Assembly: GCF_001540865.1 (NCBI RefSeq)
Contig: NC_033635.1
Span: 2,620,787 to 2,684,786 of the forward strand
Reading direction: 5' to 3'
Source: Ananas comosus
Taxonomy: Eukaryota; Streptophyta; Magnoliopsida; Poales; Bromeliaceae
DNA: 64,000 nucleotides
Position numbers and translations under genes: made by a program. The notes under the pieces were generated by a model, which ran no database searches, was not told where the DNA came from, and saw nothing but the letters and a program-made list of their open reading frames with translations. Every line of letters begins with the position of its first letter. The first letter of the stretch is position 1. Of the stretch, positions 4,301 through 52,107 are shown piece after piece.

Positions 4301-6234
4301 TATTTCTCCATTCAGAGAAAAATATAACAAAAATATTCTTTTATTAATTATGGCGGAACGTATCAATCAAAGAGGGATAATTTTATTCGTTGGGAACGCC
4401 ACATCAGTAATACACCAGATGCATTTTAGATTTTTCTCTAATTAACTGGGGTCTATTCCAAAAAACAAAAGAAAAAAAGAAAAAGAAAAGAAAAAAACAG
4501 CTGGGTTTGTGTTAGCCCCATCCATTTTCTTTTTTTTTTAATAAAAAAGACTTTTGAGCATAGAGTTGTTTAAGGAAATCCTAAAAACTAATTCGATGAT
4601 TGTTTTTAAAGCTTTTTTTAGTTAGAATTTGAAAGTAAAAGTTCAAATTGAAACTTTGTTTGCTGCAGTTTAAAATTTTATTTGCCTGATAACCAAAGTT
4701 TTAGACTTTTTTATTGTATCAATATTTAAGTAAATACATCGGATTTGGATTTTAGGGATCAAAAAATTAAAATACAGATTTCAAAAAATAGAAATAAGAA
4801 TTATCCATATAATGAGGGTATTTAATTATGAGCCATTTATTTGAAACTAGACGTAAAATTTTAATTTTAGCTCAAACTTGGATTCATATTATATTTTTCC
4901 TTTTAAAAAATATACCATCCAACCAGGATTCAAAACAGAGCATCGAAAGAGCTCTGTAATATTATTTGGCCAAAAAAAATGGAGTAAATGCACAAAAAGA
5001 TATGATTCTCCCATCTATAGTGACATCTCAAAACTCAATAATAACAATATAAACTACGTGACATGCAATTATTTATGAAAACTATAATAAACTTTTATAC
5101 CGTATTTTTTTTTACCGCGGGTAATATTATGTTGTTGTCGTTTCAACGAAAGTATAAACAATTAGTTATTACTCGAAATGCAATGAGAAGGGTAAAGTTT
5201 TTTTTTTTTCGACCGAAAAAAATTACGAGGAGTAAAATAATTTTTGACGGTAAATATTTTTTTTTATTATTTCACTTGTGTTCGAAAATATAAAATTTTT
5301 AAAATATCATAATCAGCTCCGATTCATTCCAAAACTAAAGTCAAATTTTTTAAAATTATCGCCAATACTTTTGATTTTTACGATATTCATTTTCTGCCAA
5401 ATAAATAGTATAAATTAATAAAAATTTAATTTTATGGTTATAAAAATAAACAGAGGTGAGAAATCTAAACTTTAGTTTATTCAAAGAATCTATTTTAATT
5501 TAAACTTCGGTTTTAATAAAAAAAAATTACAAAAAAATAAAATTTATATTATAAAAAAAAAATTATGTAACATTTATAACACATCATCTAATTATAACGG
5601 GCACATTCAAGTTTTGGAGTCGTATTATATCGTATAGGCTCTTAATTAGGCATTTACGGAAAAACTACAATGACGAAAATAGCCCCAAACTTAATGAAGA
5701 TTTAGCGGAACAACGAGGGCATTAATGTCATTTCGAATTTTTGGCGCGACGTGCGAGCGAGGAAAAAGCCTTTCCGGACGATCGGTCAAGTCCATGGACC
5801 CGGGTCTACAGACTCAGTAGGCCCCCTAGGATGGGTCCCACACCCCCCAAAGTGAATTTCCTATTTTGCCCCTGCCCACCAACGACATTTTCGCAGTTTG
5901 CCCCCTCTCTCCCACTAAAATTACAATCCCGCCCCTCCCCGATCTCGAAATAGTATATCCGTACTAAACAGTGAGAAATCATTTAATTATTACACCCTGG
6001 GGTTTTGTCCCCGTCGTGCAAAGCATTACTGTTGGTTGGTTTATTTATTTATTTATTAATTTCTTATTTTAATTTAATTTATTTTTTATTTGTTGGTAAT
6101 AATAATAATAATAATTATCATTACTTTCCAACATTCCGTACGCACCTATCCGTGTTAACCAGTGTTTTAAAATCCATAAATTATTGCATAACAGTTCATT
6201 TACAAAAAATATATTATAAAATATAGTATTTAAT
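1343..6234. other. AT-rich intergenic DNA without a supportable gene
   Basis: No open frame here has codon bias, splice logic or a recognisable motif. It holds many A/T homopolymers, a partial SINE-like scrap near 3340-3440 and a GC-richer island at about 5700-5960 with C-rich tracts. The island could be an old promoter or repeat fragment, but no gene follows it. Confidence 0.5.
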
Positions 6235-6600
6235 AGAGTAAATTACAGAAATTTTTTTTTAAATATATATATTTTTTTACTTTTTCTTTTCAACTTTCAA
6301 AGGCCTATATTTTTACTACCTCAATATTTTAAATTACTGTATTTAGCCCCTCTACATCAGGTTCTATCGTTATTCCATTTATTTCTTAAAATTTATACGG
6401 AAAATATTCTTCAAAATGATAAAAAATATAGTAAAATTTTATTTTTTTTCTTATGGAAAAAGTAAATGTAATTTGATCATTTTGTCTTCTCTATTAACAC
6501 CTTACTCCTCTACAAATATTTCCAAAATTTTAAGAGAATAAAATATAAATTTTTTGAAAGTCAAAAAGAAAAAAGTGAAAAAATATATATTAATTTTTTG
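6235..6600. mobile_element. MITE-like inverted-repeat element, family D copy 1
   Basis: The left part (ACTTTTTCTTTTCAACTTTC at about 6280) is mirrored by the right part (near 6555-6590, reverse complement ACTTTTTTCTTTTTGACTTT). A second diverged copy lies at about 54100-54440 and shares TTTGATCATTTTGTCTTCTC and TATTAACAC. Length about 300-360 bp, non-coding. Confidence 0.55.
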
Positions 6601-6605
6601 TTTTT

Positions 6606-6738
6606 TTAGAGATAGGTAACGCTGCCCGCTTTGTTTTATTTCATTTAGAAATAAATTTAGCTGTAAATGTGAATCAACTAGAATTCGAACTTGGGTCTCG
6701 GGTACCAACCATCGAGCCCTTTTGTCACTTGCTCCAAC
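6606..6738 (-). repeat. tRNA-derived SINE copy, 5'-truncated
   Basis: GAGATAGGTAACGCTGCCCG at the left, the GTGAATCAACTAGAATTCGAA core, ending CACTTGCTCCAAC where the other copies continue TCTAGGGACGG. It abuts family D copy 1. Confidence 0.65.
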
Positions 6739-7001
6739 TTTTAAGCATTTTTGGATATTCAAATCCCTGATTTTATAATCTGCTACTGAACAGCTAATTA
6801 ATGGACTATTAATGTTTAAATACAACCATGTGTATTATACAATATTAGTTAAAATAATAGCATTCTTAGTTTATTTGTAACCTTTTTTTAATAGATATAA
6901 TACTATATTATTTCTCAAAAAACTATAACAAGAGAATTAAGACTTTGTTGGCAATTAATGGTAGAGTGCGTTTCATGTGCTTTGAAAGTATGAGAAAAAA
7001 A

Positions 7002-7151
7002 TTATTTATTTGTATTTATAAATAATATAATATTATCTAATTCATATTTAGTTAGTTAAAATATAATTTTTATAGCTTATTTATTTGTATTTATAAATAA
7101 TAACGTATTATGTAAATCGTACTAGTTAGTTAAAATATAGTTTTTACAGCT
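7002..7151. repeat. tandem duplication of about 75 bp
   Basis: Two adjacent diverged units each contain TTATTTATTTGTATTTATAA, then TAGTTAGTTAAAATATA and TTTTTA(T/C)AGC. The first ends near 7076 and the second near 7151. Confidence 0.7.
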
Positions 7152-8514
7152 CTATATGGATTCATCCAATTTTTTTTTTTTTGACTCAATTGCGTTACAT
7201 GCCTTTTTATTGATTTCTCATATATCATGTTCTATTTATAATAAGCGAAAGCATAACGTTCATAATATTTTGAGGTGGTACGTATAGACACGTAAAGAAT
7301 CTATATAAGATTCAAAATTAAGACATGTGACACTTTTTTATTCTTATATAAAAATTAACTCTATACTTTACTTATTATCATTACTAGATGTTAAAAAAAT
7401 AAACAAACTATATGCATTCATTTCATCTAATTTTCGAATTATTTTCTCCATCGAACTTAAATAAATGACATAATAATAATACAAATTAAAGCTTGTCAAA
7501 ACTAAACTATTTACAACAAAATGAGCATGTTATAAGCGCCGCTTAGATAACAATTACCCTTTATTAATTATAATTATAAGATAATTTTGTTTTGAGTAAT
7601 TTCTACGTATATAACCATTCCAATTTGGGACAAGTATGTTGTATAAAAATACGAATGAATTGTTAATTAGTTGAGTTGAAATTGTATTTAATTGGGGTAA
7701 TTAAGAAACAAAATGCTGGCCTTTGCAGAATTAATTGTTTATTTAATTTAATTACAACTTGCTTATACAAAAGACCAACTAAAGTGTTATTTAAAACAAA
7801 AAAAAGTTGGAAATATTTGTATCATGTTTGGTGGGGAATAATTTTCAAATATCTGACTAAACGATAAAATCGCAAAAAATGTTTAATATTTTAGCACATT
7901 TCCTATTATCCATTACTTTCTATACATATCATACATAAATCAAATGGTCAATATTTAAATCAAAAATTTAATTTGATAGATATAATATATAATATTTAAA
8001 AGATTTATATTTAAAAATTTATAAATTTTAAAAAGTTTCTTCTGAAAAATGAAAAAAATATTATATAATGCACAAAGTTGAATATGTAAGCTTTTAAATA
8101 TTGCTATATATTAAATTAAATTATATTCCCATTTGGGACTTGTAAACTATGTCTTTATTAGGGGATCAGTAGTCAATAGCCAACATTTTTAATAATAATA
8201 ATCAAAACTAAATGGATATAAAGAAATGACTATAAAATATAAAAATTTGATAAAAATATATAAAATTACTTAAATTATAGACTATTTTGAGTCGAATAAA
8301 ATTTAAATTTTACTATTCAATTTTTTAATTTATTTAATTTGAATCGGTCAATGCCACTTTTACTTTAAAGTTTGAATGCATTGTTTTTACAAGTTTAATT
8401 AGTATACTTTATATTATCTTAATTATAAATTATTAAAATTGAATTACTGTTGATTGTCCAAATTAAATAAATTATAAGATTGGATAGTAAAAATATAAAA
8501 AGATAAAAAATAAT

Positions 8515-11514: not shown

Positions 11515-14500
11515 ATGCCTATTAATAATGTAAAGGCTTTTGATATGCAAAACATTACTGGCAAAGCTACGGAGGGCAGTTCAGTCCATTCAGCATCTAT
11601 TAATGTTTTACAGAACTGTCAATCTTGGTGGAATTCTTCTAGCATGTTCCACTTTCAGCAACCATCGTATCCCAAGACGTTGTGCGTGAACAAGGAATTC
11701 GTGGCAGAACATGGTAATCAGATAAAGCAAGTTGGTCATCAGATGCCCGACCAAGACTCATCGTCAACTCAGTCAACTAGTCAGTCCAATCAAGAAGTTT
11801 CCGGAAGAAGCGAAGGTAGCAGCCTAAATGAGCAGCAGCATACTTCAACACAATCTGGTATAAGTTATTCACACGGTACTTATCTTCCTTTGCTACTCAA
11901 TGTGCTATTTTTAGTTATACATCTCGACCATTAGAAGCTTTTGTAGCTTGTTCTTTTTCTGAAGTTTAGCACACTAATAAGGCTTGATGGTCGGCTTACT
12001 TGTTTGTCATTTTTTTCCCCTTTTCCTCACATTCTAACTGCATATCATCTGAAAGACTACAATTAGAGTTGATTTCTTTGATCCTTCAATCCCTTCCTCA
12101 TATGTCGGGCACATTTGGCTTTGAACAACTATTTTGCTTTGAATAAAAGCACTTTGTGGTATCAGACTGACGGCGCTAGTTACGTTTAGAAATATTGATT
12201 GTACATTTGGCTGATTCTAAAACTCAATAGTTCATCATTCTTTCACTTTAGCAATTATCCTCCCAGAATTACATGGATACTTGCACAAAAATGATCCTTG
12301 TAGTTATTATTTGAGGTTCCACTTTGCCCTAACAAATCAGGTGTACAAGCTTCTACGCATTGTCATCTAATAATGTTGTTCTTCTCTCACTTAGGTAATG
12401 CTGATAGCTATGGAAAGCGGGATGACGGTCAGATGAAGTCAGTGTTATCTTTGGGAAATCCGGAAGCTGCCTTTCCACCTCAGAAACTTGATTATTCCCA
12501 GTCTTTCGTAAGTTCATCTAATTTTTCAATCTTTTGAATGTCAGTGAGCGAGCTCTTCAAATCCTTTTTATTCCACATTTTTATAAATTCATTAGTTTGT
12601 TCTGCAACAAGTTTCCTAGTCCTCTGCCGTTTCTCTTTCAGGCTTGTGTTCCATACCCTTATGCTGATCCATGCTATGGTAACGTACTGACTGCTTATGG
12701 GGCACATGCCATTGTAAGTGTTTCTTTCTTTAGACAAAAAATAAAGATAAAATAAAATAAATCTTGTTCTTTGTAATTGCGAAAGTCGCCATTATGTAAT
12801 AGAGCACCTCCTTTAATATTTTTCTTTGAAAGTTTGTTATCAACATGAATTTCTAAGCAAACACTACTAGATAGCACTTCTATAGGTAACTAATGATGAA
12901 CTGATGAAGTAGCAGTTTCATTGGTGAATTAGGTGTCTTTACTATTTTTTCCTCTGCATACCCTTAGAAAGATGCTAATTTATGTTTTTACCGTTTGAAA
13001 ACTAATGGACACCCTTTCTTCATAAACTAGTGTTGCGCTGTAAGGTTTCACAAATTCAGCTTGTAAGCATCCAATATGTATACTAATAACGTAATTTCTC
13101 AGGACTTTGTAATTGATGCTGAAAAATGGTGTGCATCATTTCAGCTGGAAGTCACCTGCAGAATTATAGGTGTTTGATTGAAATAGTTTTCAACTTCTGT
13201 TTTTCTCTTACAGTGGATTCCTGTTCTTATTCAGTCTCTTGAGTTGTATTCTTTGCATAGAGCATAGCGTAGTTAGAAGTATAATTTCACTTCAATCTTT
13301 CTTGAGTTTTTTAACTGAAAGTTGAAACTGTAGGAAAATGTTCAGCTTATCAAGTTATTAGTTTCTCACTTTTCCGTTTGTATTGTTGGTTAATTTCATT
13401 CCTTCTTCTGATATTTGCTGTAATGTTATTATTAGTTTCATTCCTCCTCCCGATATTTGCCTTAATGTCATTAAGCTTCTAAAATTTTCACCTAATCATG
13501 AATTTCCCTTAATGTGGCTACTAAATAGGTTGTCGGAGATGCCCACAAGACCTTTGAATGCACCGCACCCATATACTGTTAATGCATACTTACTAGTTAT
13601 TATCTGTTGTACTGTCTTAAACCAGATTCATCCTCAAATGGTGGGTATGGCACCTTCCACCCGGGTCCCTCTGCCTCTTGAACCTGCCTCCGAAGAACCA
13701 ATTTATGTGAACGCAAAGCAATATCATGCAATCCTACGAAGGAGACAGCTACGAGCAAAGTTAGAGGCTGAAAATAAACTTGTCAAAAATCGGAAGGTAT
13801 ATAAATTTTGAAGCTTTTTCGTTTTAATTACTTTGTCCAAGTTATCTTGAGATCGAAATAGTAGTTATTTATATTGTGCTAATAGTTTTAAAGAGGGCGC
13901 TTTGAGGAAAAGAAGTGATGGGTGCTTGCGATGAGCTGATAATCTATGTTAGATACAATTGGATCGGGGCGCTATATTAGCTATCCCAAAGCTTTTAGTA
14001 TGTTAACAATGCTCAGAGTCGATGCCTTTTTTTAGATAAGCCCTAGGAAAATACTAGTGCAGTTGAAAAATAGTTTTTAGCAGTTAACTCAGTAATTGGT
14101 CTTAGCCTTCAATTTATTTATTTCAGCTATGACTGATCCAAGGGTCCAAATAAGTTAGACTTGGCTGCTTAGGTGTCTTCTCATTGATGCCTGTATCTGT
14201 TTCCAGCCTTACCTTCACGAGTCTCGACATCTCCACGCGATGAAGAGAGCTAGAGGATCCGGAGGGCGCTTCCTTAACACAAAACAGCTTCAACAACAGC
14301 AGCAGCAGCCGCAGTCGGATAACACAAAGCTATTGGGTTTGAACTTCCTCTCCGAAAACGGCCCGACCGGCTCATCTGCGACTCCGACCAGCTCCGATAG
14401 CACAAGCATGTCCAACAGTGGCGGCGTATACATGCAACAGGACAATCTCGGCTTCGCAGCAAGCAATCTCCACTCTCATGCAAGGAGGGGTATTCAAGAC

Positions 14501-14557
14501 GGAAGCAACAAAATTGCCAACGGCGGCTCGCATGTTAGGGTTCCGATCATGAGGTGA
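11515..14557 (+). CDS. NF-YA: nuclear transcription factor Y subunit alpha (NF-YA / HAP2)
   Basis: Coding exons are 11515-11857, 12395-12507, 12642-12713, 13626-13796 and 14207-14557, all GT/AG, giving 349 aa. The first coding exon begins about 55 nt after an acceptor at 11459-11460, so the leader is spliced. Residues about 199-259 hold the full NF-YA core: [19 protein letters not shown] for binding NF-YB/NF-YC, then [23 protein letters not shown] and RFLNTK for recognising CCAAT. The intron between NRK and PYLHE cuts the core at its linker. The N-terminal half is Ser/Gln-rich and a poly-Gln stretch follows the core, as expected for activation regions. The family assembles with the NF-YB/NF-YC histone-fold dimer in the nucleus to bind CCAAT boxes. 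A miR169-type site follows the stop. The start fits because it is the first ATG after the acceptor. Family assignment is very secure; the exact paralogue is not. Confidence 0.95.
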
Positions 14558-16990: not shown

Positions 16991-17683
16991 TTAGAAGATA
17001 TTTTCTCATGCTTTGGGGACACATTGGTTGCTTAGGGTGGGCATAAATGGTTCAGTTTAAGAAAATCAAAATAAAAAAAAACAAACCAATTGTGTGGAAA
17101 ACAAAACTGCGCCTTTTTCTTGCACTCACTCTCATTGATTGGATTTAAGTCGGACCCAAACTGTAGCCAAATCGATACGAGCCATTTTCCTACGAATCAC
17201 ATCGGGTTTACGATTTCGAATCAGAGAGTGACAGTGTGTGTGAATCTACAACAGCACAAGCGAAATTTGTAGTCTAAAAGCATGGCCAAAATATTCTCAG
17301 ATTTTTCGAAAACTCATGAAAAGTTCACTAATCTTTAATTTGGCTAATGTTTCATTAATATGTGAAAACTAACAACAAATTGCAAAAACTAATATATTGG
17401 TTTTATAACTATTATATACACAAATATGTTTTGTATTTATATGTTATTAATATTTTCATTTGTCTATTAACCAAAATATTTCCGAATTACTATATTACTT
17501 CATCAAATATGTTCCTAAATACAAAAATTTTAACGATGCCAAACTTGTGCGGCAAAGACAAGCTTGACCTACGATTGAGCACTTCAGCTTTTTTTCGCAT
17601 CTAATCTTAAAATAAAAAAAAAATTAAATTCTATTCTACATAAACATAAACTTAATTATGAATCAAATTATGTTTCTTCTACC
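16991..17683. other. intergenic DNA, no gene seen
   Basis: AT-rich; open frames here are short and without family features. It contains the distal promoter of the minus-strand cysteine-rich gene. Confidence 0.4.
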
Positions 17684-17822
17684 GACCGTCCCTAGAGCAA
17701 GTGGCAAAGGACTTGGCGGTTGATATCCGAGACCCAAGTTCGAATCCTAGTTGAATCACATTTCTAGCTAAGTTTATTTCTAAATGAAATAAACGAAGCT
17801 GGTAGCGTGCTACCTATCTCTC
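17684..17822 (+). repeat. tRNA-derived SINE copy, forward orientation
   Basis: Starts ACCGTCCCTAGAGCAAGTGG (A-box-like), then AAGTTCGAATCCTAG (B box), the AAACTAAG..TTTATTTCTAAATGA body, and ends GTGCTACCTATCTCTC. It is followed directly by a TA microsatellite. Confidence 0.75.
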
Positions 17823-17842
17823 AAATATATATATATATATAT

Positions 17843-18383
17843 AGAGTCCGGCTACTATACTATCGATAGCACGGAACGCTCCGTGCTACCAAGTTGTTTT
17901 CAATGATGCGGCTTTCAAATCGACGATCGGCTCCGTTAGACTTGATCTATACTATTGAAAGTATTTGAAAACTAAATTTCAGATTTTTTTGACATCATTT
18001 GACTAGTGATAAAAAAATCTCAAAATTGACAATTTTAACGGCTGATGTGGTGTGTTTGAGAGTTTAACGGTGTAAAACAATCCAAACCCGATGAAAATTT
18101 TATAGAAAATTTTTTTCACTATTTAGAATAAGATCAGTATATCTGATCTTGAATTTAAATCTTTTATCATCATTTTTTATGAGATTTTTATTTTCAGCCG
18201 TTCACTTTTAGACTACTTGTTTGATAGGTAAATGGTATCGAAAAATTATGAAATTTAGTTTCTAAATACTTTTAATAGTGTAGATCAAGTCTAATGGAAC
18301 CGATCGTCGATTTGGAAGCCGCATCATCGAAAACAACTTAGTAGCACGGAGCACTCCGTGCTACCGATAGTATAGTAGCCTAG

Positions 18384-18387
<4 letters not shown>
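17843..18387. mobile_element. family B foldback element (long inverted repeats, (TA)n flanks)
   Basis: The left arm GGCTACTATACTATCGATAG...CTCCGTGCTACC recurs inverted at the right as GGAGCACTCCGTGCTACCGA...AGTATAGTAGCC. The arms are about 140 bp each, including the GATCGGCTCCGTTAGACTTG block. TA repeats lie on the left; (CT)n then (TA)n lie on the right. No coding capacity. Confidence 0.8.
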
Positions 18388-18421
<34 letters not shown>

Positions 18422-18435
18422 ATATATATATATAT

Positions 18436-18587
18436 ATATATGCTTATGGAAGCACGGAGGGCTCCGTGCTTCCACTTTGTTTTCGATGTTCGGACTTTCG
18501 AATCGACGATCGGCTCCGTTAGACTTGATCTAGAGTATTTGAAGTATCTAGAAAATAAATTTTGCAATTTTTCGATATCATTTGCCT
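18436..18587. mobile_element. family B' element, left part, cut by an assembly break
   Basis: Begins TGCTTATGGAAGCACGGAGG and follows the family as far as TTTCGATATCATTTGCCT at 18587, where the printed sequence changes abruptly. Its missing continuation is found by reading backwards from 21434: AGTAATTGAAGTGCCTCAAA, and so on. Confidence 0.75.
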
Positions 18588-18938
18588 GGGGGGAGAAGGG
18601 TGTTGAATCCCGTGCCAACGGAGGTGAGGACGGCGTCTTGTGGCGGGCAGCTCCAAACGAGGGGAAGGGCGGGTCGCTCACGAGGCCGGTGTGCGATGCA
18701 GTTGACGTCCCGCCCGGGTAGGTGGTAAAGCAGGTGTGGCGCGACGCGGAGGCAAGTAGAGGCAACGTCACGCGCCGGAAGGAGAGGACTCGAAAAGTCT
18801 CAGGAAAGCTGAAGTTACGACTTAAAAGGTGGAAAATGGAGGAAATACCAAGCAAAGCTTAGCTAGCTAACTAACTACACCAAACTTAGAAAGCTAACCC
18901 CAAAACCTCGGGATCTAAACAGGGATCCCAAGCTTGTC

Positions 18939-19062
18939 CACCTGCCGCTCCTGCTGCTAAGCGTCCGCCTCAAGTTGACGGGGAAAACACGACTCCTAAA
19001 GCTAAAGTCACCCCGAAACAACGTTGTAGTTACTGCTCGTGGTGCAACTCCGATTTTTACCC
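18939..19062. other. hidden Di19-type zinc-finger exon (visible only in the plain complement)
   Basis: Complement the bases and keep the left-to-right order. After an acceptor-like CGAACAG the exon reads VDGEDDDSQAEFNCPFCAED and FDF, then after one extra base VGLCCNINDEHHVEAKNG, and ends at a GT donor. CPFC...LCC and DEH.VEAKNG are the signature of the Drought-induced 19 (Di19) nuclear zinc-finger family, where an intron also follows VEAKNG. The exon is 124 nt; without the extra base it is exactly 41 codons. Against the family the first zinc-ligand His reads Asn, and Pro after EH reads His. These and the frameshift could be base-calling errors or decay. The first exon and downstream exons were not found. 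Confidence 0.7.
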
Positions 19063-20718
19063 CATAAACGAAAGAAAAAGCTACCAAATCTCCACATAAC
19101 TTAGCTAAAGGGATTGGCTTATCCACAATAGAATGTTAATGACGTTATAGTGGTGGTATCCTGAAGGATAGACAGAATTTATTCGGGGTAAAAAAAGAAT
19201 GAGAATAGTATCAAACCAAATCGCATCTAGAGAGAGAGAAAAAAAAATTATCAACATAACGAACGATACAAAAAACAAAACTAATAAACTCAAAAACTTA
19301 CTTTTTAGACTATCAAGCAAAAACGGCGGTTGGTATATTTCAGAGGAAAAACAGGGGTAGTCAAACAAATTAAACAACTCCAAAGGGATAAAAATAAAAA
19401 GGTACCTTTTTAATGACGCTCCAACTTAGGGTTCTTTATACGAACAGTAACTTAAGAGTGAAGATCAACACATACAACCATAACTACCCTCCTTCCTATA
19501 TTTTTTCTTTTTTTTTTTTAGGGACTCCTACAAGTTTACCTTCAGTTTTGACAACCTGTAAAAAGAAACCCCAACTAGTGGTTCGTGTTTCTCTTAATCA
19601 TACGTGGAGCTGTATTGTGTTTTATCTATATCACGGGTGATAGTATGACCTACTAGTGACCAGTTTGTTTAGTTCAAGGAGTTCCCCAACAAAAGACTCA
19701 GGACGTTTACCTTAGGGTATTCTGACATTACGAGAATTCAAAATTTAGTAACTAGTAGAGGTGATTTTCAACCTAGTAGTTTCAACTTACTAGGTTAAAT
19801 TAAAGAAATTGTACATAAAAGGATAGGAGGAGTGACGAACGTACTATGGAAGTATGGTTATGTAATACCGGTTTATGGTTACAGTAAAGTGATTACGTAG
19901 AGACGGTAGCACGTTATCAATATTTCTTTTATTTCCGGAACACAAGACGAAAGGATGTAATGTCTGTGTTACAGTTTCGAAGGTATTTCGTGACATAATC
20001 AACAACCAAGCTAATTCAAACTCGTAAAACCTTCTACACTAACTCAAGAAAGTTAACTACCAGCGATCAACCCAACAGGACACAATAGTTTCAGCAGGAC
20101 ACAATAGTTTCATCGAGAGTTGGAGTTACCGAGAAAACACATACAATGGATAGACTACAGTGGGTCAAAAACTAGTACCCTACCTTTGCTCAAAGGTTCT
20201 ATTTTCTCTACCTAGTTGTGAAAATCCTTAAACGTCACGTAAAACCCTAGTGAGCTAACAAAGTTAACATCCAACATTTTCCTTTCCAAATATTTTTCAT
20301 CTCTTCCCGTACTATAGACATTAGGTGATTAGGATATAAGTATAAGGTGACGATATTGGTTATTTAACAAGGAGAAATCGTGGATGACAAACTAGAGACA
20401 ATTACACGTTTTGTTCTAATGACTCAACACTAGTAAGAAAATAACTTACGATCATACCATGAAATAAGAAAGAGAACACTTTATTGAACACGAGAGGTTG
20501 CAGTTGTTTCGATTAAGAGTGGATACTTAGGATAAATAGATCCGGTAAACCTAATCCTTGTACCCTGGACCAACTAAGAATAGGTCAAACGTAACCGATT
20601 TGAGGTGTGAAGAGCTCGGTGTTTACACTAACAAAGAATAAAGAATTGGTAAAAGATTTGATAACAACGGTTAGGGTACTTAGTAATAAAGATTATTGTA
20701 TATTAATGATATGATTAG

Positions 20719-20786
<68 letters not shown>

Positions 20787-20799
20787 TGATCCGATTATA

Positions 20800-21015
20800 T
20801 GATAATTATCATGGTTCAGTAACCACGATGGTTCAAAAACCAGTAACCTAATTCTCTACACGCCAACCCTACTACACCCGGGGGATCCCAACTCACCCAT
20901 CAACCAACTTATCATACTAGATTACCCACTTTTACTAGTTTTCCCATCTAGATTGCCGCCTTTTGAACCATCGTGTTTCACGAAGCACGATAATTATCGT
21001 ATCATCGGCCTGATA
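20800..21015. mobile_element. family C MITE inside the reversed block
   Basis: Its plain complement contains GGTTGGGATGATGTGGGCCC and AACTTGGTAGC, matching copies at 51841-52069 and 52108-52334. (TA)n lies on both sides (about 20720-20784 and 21012-21038). Confidence 0.75.
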
Positions 21016-21434
21016 TATATATATATATATATATATCTCACCCGACCATACGAATACCTTCGTGCCTCCGGAGGCACGAAGGTTCAATAAAAGCTACAAG
21101 CCTGAAAGCTTAGCTGCTAGCCGAGGCAATCTCAACTAGATCTCATAAACTTCATGGATCTTTTATTTAAAACGCTAAAAAGCTATAGTAAACGGATCAC
21201 TAGTTTCCCCGAGTTTTAGTTATTAAAATTGCCGGCACCACTCGGCCAACGTTCAAATTGCCACATCTTTATAGGTTTAGTGTACTTTAAAACTATCTTT
21301 TAAGAAATATGGTATATTTTGTTCTAGTTATTGAAATTAGATTTTAAAATTACAGTATAGTAGTATAAAACATTCTAAAGATAAAAGTCGGCTAAAAATA
21401 AAAGTCAGCAACTAAAACTCCGTGAAGTTAATGA

Positions 21435-21459
21435 NNNNNNNNNNNNNNNNNNNNNNNNN
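21435..21459. other. assembly gap of 25 N
   Basis: A run of exactly 25 N at the right end of the reversed block, a typical fixed-size scaffolding or gap-filling placeholder. Confidence 0.99.
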
Positions 21460-22384
21460 ATGTGGTGTGTTGAAATTTAACGGTGTAAACAATCCAAACC
21501 CGATGAAAATTTTATAGAAATTTTTTCACTATTAGAATAAGATCTAGTATATCTGAATCTTGAATCTTAAATCTTTTATCATCTTTTTTTATGAGATTTT
21601 TATTTCAGCCGTTCACTTTTAGACTACTTAGTTGATAGGTAAATTGGTATCGAAAATTATGAAATTTCTATTTCTAAATACTTTTATAAGTGGTACGATC
21701 AAGTTAATGGAAACGATCGCCTCGATTTGGAAGCCGCAACTATCGAAAACAACTTAGTAGACGGAGCAACGTCGTCCTACGATAGGTAAGTGCCTACTCT
21801 CTTTCTCTCGTCTCTCTCTCTCTCTCTCTTTTCTATATATATATATATATATAGTGTTATGGAAGCACGGAGGTCTCGTGTTCCACTTGTTGTTCCGATG
21901 TTCGGCACTTTCGAATCGACGATCGCTCCGTGTTAGACTCTGATCTAGGAGTTATTTGAATATCTAGAAAATAATTTGCAATTTTTCGATACATTTGCCT
22001 AGTTATTGAAGATGGCCTTCAAACTCAACGACTGAAAATAAAAAATCGGCTGAAAATAATATCTTACCACAAATATGATGGATATGGACATCTAAATTTT
22101 TAGATTAAAGTATTGATCTTGTTTTAAATATGGTATAAAAAGAATCTTTCTACATCAAAATTTCATGTTGCATTTGGATATTTCTACAACCGTTACTTAC
22201 AACCGCTCTCACGGCGGTTAACATTATTGATTTTGAGCGCCCTCGATCGCTAGGCAACAATGAATTCGAAACAATCAGCAAAATTTATTTTCTAGGCTAT
22301 TCAAAATTCTAGATCAACTTCTAACGGACGCGATCGTCGATTTAAAAGTCGAATTCGAAAAACCAAATGGAAAGCACCACTTTT
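21460..22384. repeat. error-rich second copy of the 18046-18587 locus plus a complete family B' element
   Basis: 21460-21800 repeats 18046-18387 with many single-base gains and losses. It then has the same (CT)n-(TA)n junction and the same B' start near 21853, which runs on to the B' right end near 22384. The shared junction of two different elements means either the same locus represented twice or a segmental duplication. Confidence 0.7.
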
Positions 22385-22395
22385 TATATATATAT

Positions 22396-22432
<37 letters not shown>

Positions 22433-51843: not shown

Positions 51844-52068
51844 CAGCTATGGTGCTTGTAAAAGCACCAAGCATTTAGTGCTTGTAAGTTTTTTACCGTT
51901 AGATCTATTTCTCGGATCATTTTCAACCATTAGATTATACTATTCAACCAACCACCCACTCAACCCTAGGGGGCCCACATCATCCTAACCGTATATTTCT
52001 TAATCCAATGGCTAAAAATTTACAAGCACCAATAACTTGGTACTTTTAAAAGTATAGGAGCTCAATTC

Positions 52069-52069
<1 letters not shown>
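51841..52069. mobile_element. family C MITE
   Basis: Left end GTCCAGCTATGGTGCTTGTA; interior CAACCCTAGGGGGCCCACAT and CATCCTAACCG in inverse orientation to the 52108 copy. (TA)n lies on both sides. Confidence 0.75.

Positions 52070-52107
<38 letters not shown>

Follow-up and report, generated by a model that had tools for sequence, protein, structure and literature searches.

Can a stretch of a published genome be printed in a form that no DNA molecule could take? The question is raised by positions 18588-21434 of a 64,000-nucleotide stretch of Ananas comosus DNA (contig NC_033635.1 of RefSeq assembly GCF_001540865.1, hereafter the window), for which it was predicted from the letters alone that they stand in reversed order without having been complemented. 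No known DNA process reverses a sequence without complementing it, and the original prediction concluded that the block is a software error and not an inversion. In this study, we have examined the orientation of the block, the place from which its letters come, the gap beside it and the recurrence of similar blocks, both in 264 kb of C15, the assembly sequence that holds the window, and in the assembly as a whole.

Results

Orientation of the block

The prediction that the block is reversed but uncomplemented was borne out by homology, by composition and by a match of its complement on C22 of the same assembly. In a blastn comparison with all other sequence of the window (cut-off E<=1e-3, low-complexity regions filtered), the printed string had no matches and its letter-reversed form had 31; the null for the printed string covers the window and the C22 place. 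Two repeat families support the same orientation. It had been claimed that a jump from 18587 to 21434, read downwards, completes a family B' element without a break, and this junction is indeed mirrored at 22000|22001 of a second copy: 18045-18587 aligns with 21460-22000, and bases 1-346 of the reversed block align with 22001-22361. A family C element had also been read in 20800-21010, where we find that reversed 20767-21000 matches 51853-52086 at 83%. The right border is, as anticipated, a run of 25 N.

A homology-free test gave the same answer. We trained a strand-symmetric 5-mer model on the window without the block; the log-likelihood of the printed minus the reversed string was -23.4 nats/kb for the block and +1.7 to +27.0 for 20 control tiles, all of which favoured the printed form. 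With the repeat elements excluded (18588-20720) the block still scored -21.0, whereas none of 27 controls fell below their minimum of +2.7. Dinucleotide use is likewise what reversal predicts, with CpG undepleted (observed/expected 0.99 for the block and 0.78 elsewhere in the window) and GpC depleted (0.71 and 1.15). A two-state segmentation on 9-mers drew both limits of the block slightly too narrow (18922-21384). The oddity of the printed sequence had been correctly described, and it is an artefact: neither in the window nor at the matching place on C22 does the printed string have a homologue, its reversed or complemented form has one, and the block borders on a gap.

Table 1. Features of the block, its flanks and two further blocks on C15 (window positions unless a locus or C15 is named)
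Feature	Position	Strand	Remarks
MITE in the left flank	17850..18380	+	531 bp; 151-bp terminal inverted repeats, 89%; beside (TA)n and (TC)n
Start of B' element	18445..18587	+	continued by 21434 downwards or by 22001 upwards; left end approximate
Block reversed without complement	18588..21434	.	not real DNA as written; blastn, k-mer test, C22 match of complement
Complement-only copy of C22:5169748-5171943 (same assembly)	18588..20784	.	one 1-base gap; exact run 18597-20784
Complemented: zf-Di19-like exon	18939..19062	.	one frame break, then GT; break also in the C22 copy
(TA)n run	20722..20783	.	62 bases; C22 identity stops here
Reversed microsatellite-flanked repeats	20785..21434	.	family C, (TA)n, remainder of B'; blastn
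Gap of 25 N	21435..21459	.	equals PBJelly's minimum gap definition
Raw-read-like extension	21460..22420	+	normal orientation; repeats 18045-18587 and B'; right end approximate
Gene start twice, forward then reversed, around a single N	L025:5766-7602 (C15:2566552-2568388)
Reversed block of ~7 kb with a complete NAC104-like gene	C15:2593736-2600943 (L022 and start of L021)		ends approximate, from segmentation

Origin of the block

The complement of 18597-20784 is found as an exact run of 2188 bases on C22. A 602-base query from its left side (the complement of 18588-19189) had four matches in the whole assembly, the best of them at C22:5169748-5170348 (100%), and over the first 1301 bases fetched at this place the complement scored 2301, compared with 28 for the printed string and 34 for the reverse complement of the latter. 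The stretch 18588-20784 is a second, misplaced copy of the C22 sequence, complemented but unreversed relative to C22, and therefore a reversal in place would not restore the true local sequence. The attribution to software is strengthened by this exact match, although the supposition of local sequence merely printed backwards does not hold. For the same reason, we rejected a long read reversed in place as the main reading. Past 20784 the block and C22 diverge, so a single C22 contig is unproven as the source of the whole block, and a chimeric join within the (TA)n run is an equally likely account. In BLAST alignments with other copies of its repeats, the block shows mismatches and few gaps, a pattern of contig quality and not of raw reads.

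A rival account would need only one error: a long read or consensus that truly belongs to the gap on C15 was entered in reversed order, and it resembles C22 because of a recent, true duplication. It would explain why the B' element runs unbroken across 18587|21434 and why the identity with C22 ends at 20784, but 2188 bases without a mismatch are unlikely for a duplication or for an uncorrected read. Together with the evidence from the flanks and from the other blocks given below, this makes the account improbable.

The block had also been predicted to hold, once complemented, a Di19 exon ending at a GT donor. Such an exon is present, with one frame break: the complement of 18939-19062 matches Pfam zf-Di19 (E 3.1e-8) with the break bridged by an X, and rises above the cut-off only across the break and not in an open frame. 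Since both copies have the same break, this Di19-like sequence is a frameshifted exon or relic; a raw-read error was rejected as the cause of the break on the same ground. Open-frame matches to the first half of zf-Di19 were found on C13, C14, C4, C16, C5, C18 and C20, and this search of the assembly gave none on C15 or C22. DNA related to the 602-base query is present on C4 (88%) and C14 (79%) and at another place on C22 (80%). Two Di19-like stretches lie about 15 kb apart on C22, at 5154816-5155425 (80% to the query) and 5169748-5170348 (100%). The statement that gene finders will miss everything in the block holds for the C15 copy, whereas the same sequence, including the Di19-like exon, can be read on C22.

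The gap and its flanks

The left flank and its right copy differ by 48 indel positions and 12 mismatches in 566 columns (by BLAST counts, 40 gap positions and 23 mismatches), compared with 7 indel positions and 55 mismatches in 655 columns between two ordinary copies of a neighbouring repeat. The differences are thus mostly indels, and the right-hand extension (21460-22420) has the look of a long read from this locus that escaped correction, was left in the chromosome and duplicates the left side of the gap. This extension is close to the left flank, yet it continues differently from the block after the B' element, which argues against the block being a true read of the C15 gap. Substitutions point in the same direction, with 20 of 336 aligned positions between the block and the right copy and 12 of 518 between the left flank and the right copy (Fisher p 0.009). 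By BLAST counts the contrast is 26 of 337 against 23 of 522 (p 0.05), so that the excess in the block, a weak point against the rival, is only a hint that would fit a foreign origin.

The MITE of the left flank has its inverted repeats at 17850-18000 and 18230-18380 (89%). The window also contains a short repeat family with a motif like the B box of tRNA genes (1196-1339, 346-488, 6594-6734 and 17682-17825), which we take to be possibly a SINE; one copy of it, L020:6024-6177, is reversed. At 13362-14554 (+), open frames resemble by eye an NF-YA (CCAAT-binding) gene.

Other reversed blocks on C15

The 264 kb of C15 (2520787-2784786) were divided into 500-bp tiles (n=524); as the region was selected for containing the window, it provides no estimate for the genome. 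In 26 of the 524 tiles the match to other sequence was better when the tile was reversed. These tiles form nine groups, namely three single marginal tiles and six others, the window block included, and in the six the reversed matches contain a run of N or sit about 60 bases or less from one. Only two of the window block's own tiles were flagged, because its unique part has no relatives in the 264 kb. The window block is one of many such blocks, which could not have been seen by the original prediction.

Two of the other blocks contain gene sequence. In L025 only 6580-7602 is the reversed copy, one N away from the forward copy, and the two are identical in 733 of 735 aligned letters aside from indels of 12 and 69 bases, which are present in the reversed copy and missing from the forward one. 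Once reversed, this copy is in frame with the right flank and gives a 358-residue stretch without a stop. The part of L025 called X is forward, and some of the four flagged tiles of this locus cover it. A Pfam search with the L025 gene gave no family; we presume that it is BIG GRAIN. The L022 block, when reversed, has a full NAC domain (Pfam NAM, 122/122 positions), and its protein is identical over the query to an Ananas comosus NAC104-like protein except for one residue at a hand-made exon join; the last exon of this gene is found on C21 (225/225 bases, 100%). For all three blocks whose unique sequence was probed, a copy that reads normally exists elsewhere, at least for the part probed: 2197 bases in the window block, 816 of the 1023 bases in L025, and one exon plus the protein in L022. 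That L025 and L022 are duplicates too is a further point against a true C15 read in the window block.

Two more places on C15 have reversed sequence near N. In L020, where two 25-N gaps lie 1.3 kb apart (6224-6248 and 7543-7567), reversed sequence directly precedes the first gap and flanks the second on either side. About 600 bases separate L027:1-433 from L028:9001-9431, which match each other at 98.6% when one is read letter-reversed; a single N lies nearby at L027:441, and one of the two stretches is probably reversed.

The segmentation was iterated on the 264 kb and on five 10-kb loci, and only blocks with BLAST support were accepted. Many weak segments were flagged (log-likelihood about 20-90), which probably reflect gene composition. 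Two segments, C15:2539743-2540209 and 2540772-2541827, scored 99 and 129; both were masked from the database used for the tiles, in which they had almost no reversed BLAST support.

Recurrence in the assembly

The assembly searched has 381,958,007 bases in 3128 sequences. A 20-mer from the terminal region of the repeat occurs in it 1936 times in the proper form and 45 times in the reversed-only form, for which chance alone, under equal base use, predicts about 0.0007 matches. The reversed matches fall on 19 of the sequences C1-C25 (41 matches) and on four small contigs (four matches). Since some are paired at opposite ends of a single element, the number of distinct places is about 40. At each of the four places that were fetched, the match sits within a reversed stretch (241 to 1528 bases long); N was present within the fetched 2 kb at three and absent at L037. 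The five 10-kb loci (L030-L034), taken from C1-C5 regardless of the 20-mer, had no block callable as reversed, and their reversed matches trace mainly to the blocks on C15.

The balance tips slightly towards a systematic program fault that has placed copies of existing contigs, either only complemented or only reversed, next to gaps all over F153. These could amount to up to about 2% of the assembly, or some megabases, if 45 of 1981 is representative, and other genomes from the same pipeline may share the fault. The figure of 2.3% of 382 Mb, several megabases, is an extrapolation from a single 20-mer, and since gaps gather in repeats the true reversed share is probably lower. An error in the copy of the genome that we analysed, instead of in the published F153 record, is very unlikely, as the blocks track the gap structure and contig ends, have various partner chromosomes and occur on small contigs too.

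Discussion

In this study, we have explored a stretch of sequence that is not real DNA as printed. The reversed-only writing, the duplication of C22 over 18588-20784, the adjoining 25 N, the sister blocks at gaps or Ns and the recurrence in the assembly are direct observations. With them in hand, we hold with high confidence that the block is an artefact of the F153 assembly, in which existing contig sequence, here mostly from C22, was written beside a gap with half of a reverse complement. A real biological rearrangement or unusual DNA can practically be dismissed, since the blocks adjoin gaps and we know of no replication, repair or recombination process that gives a reversed, non-complemented copy.

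One possible mechanism would be that a gap-filling or contig-extension step reuses already assembled sequence of good quality, in this case mostly from C22. Its misplacement may have been anchored by similar microsatellite-associated MITEs or by (TA)n, and the sequence would then be written next to the gap after a reverse complement that was only half completed. A single step of one program could be responsible, and the 25-N gap, along with the use of PacBio reads for F153, suggests PBJelly or a similar program.

There is no new biology in these blocks; their value lies in the apparently systematic fault to which they point, which should be checked for and masked in the pineapple assembly. Reversed-only copies evade homology search and read mapping, inflate the amount of apparently unique or orphan sequence and create false joins at gaps. 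Detection is cheap and needs no reference, as it is enough to score each stretch, once as printed and once letter-reversed, with a strand-symmetric k-mer model. If the fault is present in other genomes gap-filled by the same pipeline, the same k-mer test would find it there, again without a reference.

The ordinary misassemblies of F153 have been described, and reversed-only sequence is not mentioned in the portion of that work available to us (PMC8774480). Nor was a report of such a fault found in the part of the literature matches that our search covered, which is no proof of absence. The left-flank MITE resembles, by description, Ac-mMITE-1, one of the microsatellite-associated MITEs of pineapple as far as they are presented in the sections at hand (PMC8449440): its size of 531 bp falls within 510-570 bp, its terminal inverted repeats of 151 bp within 140-180 bp, and like them it is set beside (TA)n.

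As for the program, the F153 assembly drew on Illumina, 454, PacBio and BAC data, according to the excerpt available (PMC6139296), and use of PBJelly on it was not found in the part of the search results covered. As none of the papers covered ties PBJelly to F153, we do not accept it as the definite culprit. In the accessible part of its description, PBJelly defines a gap as 25 or more N, puts flank extensions into gaps that are left open and recognises overfilled gaps (PMC3504050). The locus resembles this in its 25-N gap and in the extensions beside a gap still open; residual 25 N beside extended flanks is suggestive only, as other programs may use 25 N. The same part of the description contains no reversed-only output (PMC3504050). 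The key distinction is that the input of PBJelly is normally raw long reads, and the right-hand extension does look like one, whereas the block has the quality of a contig and for the most part repeats sequence of another chromosome, which fits the reuse of a contig better than the insertion of raw reads.
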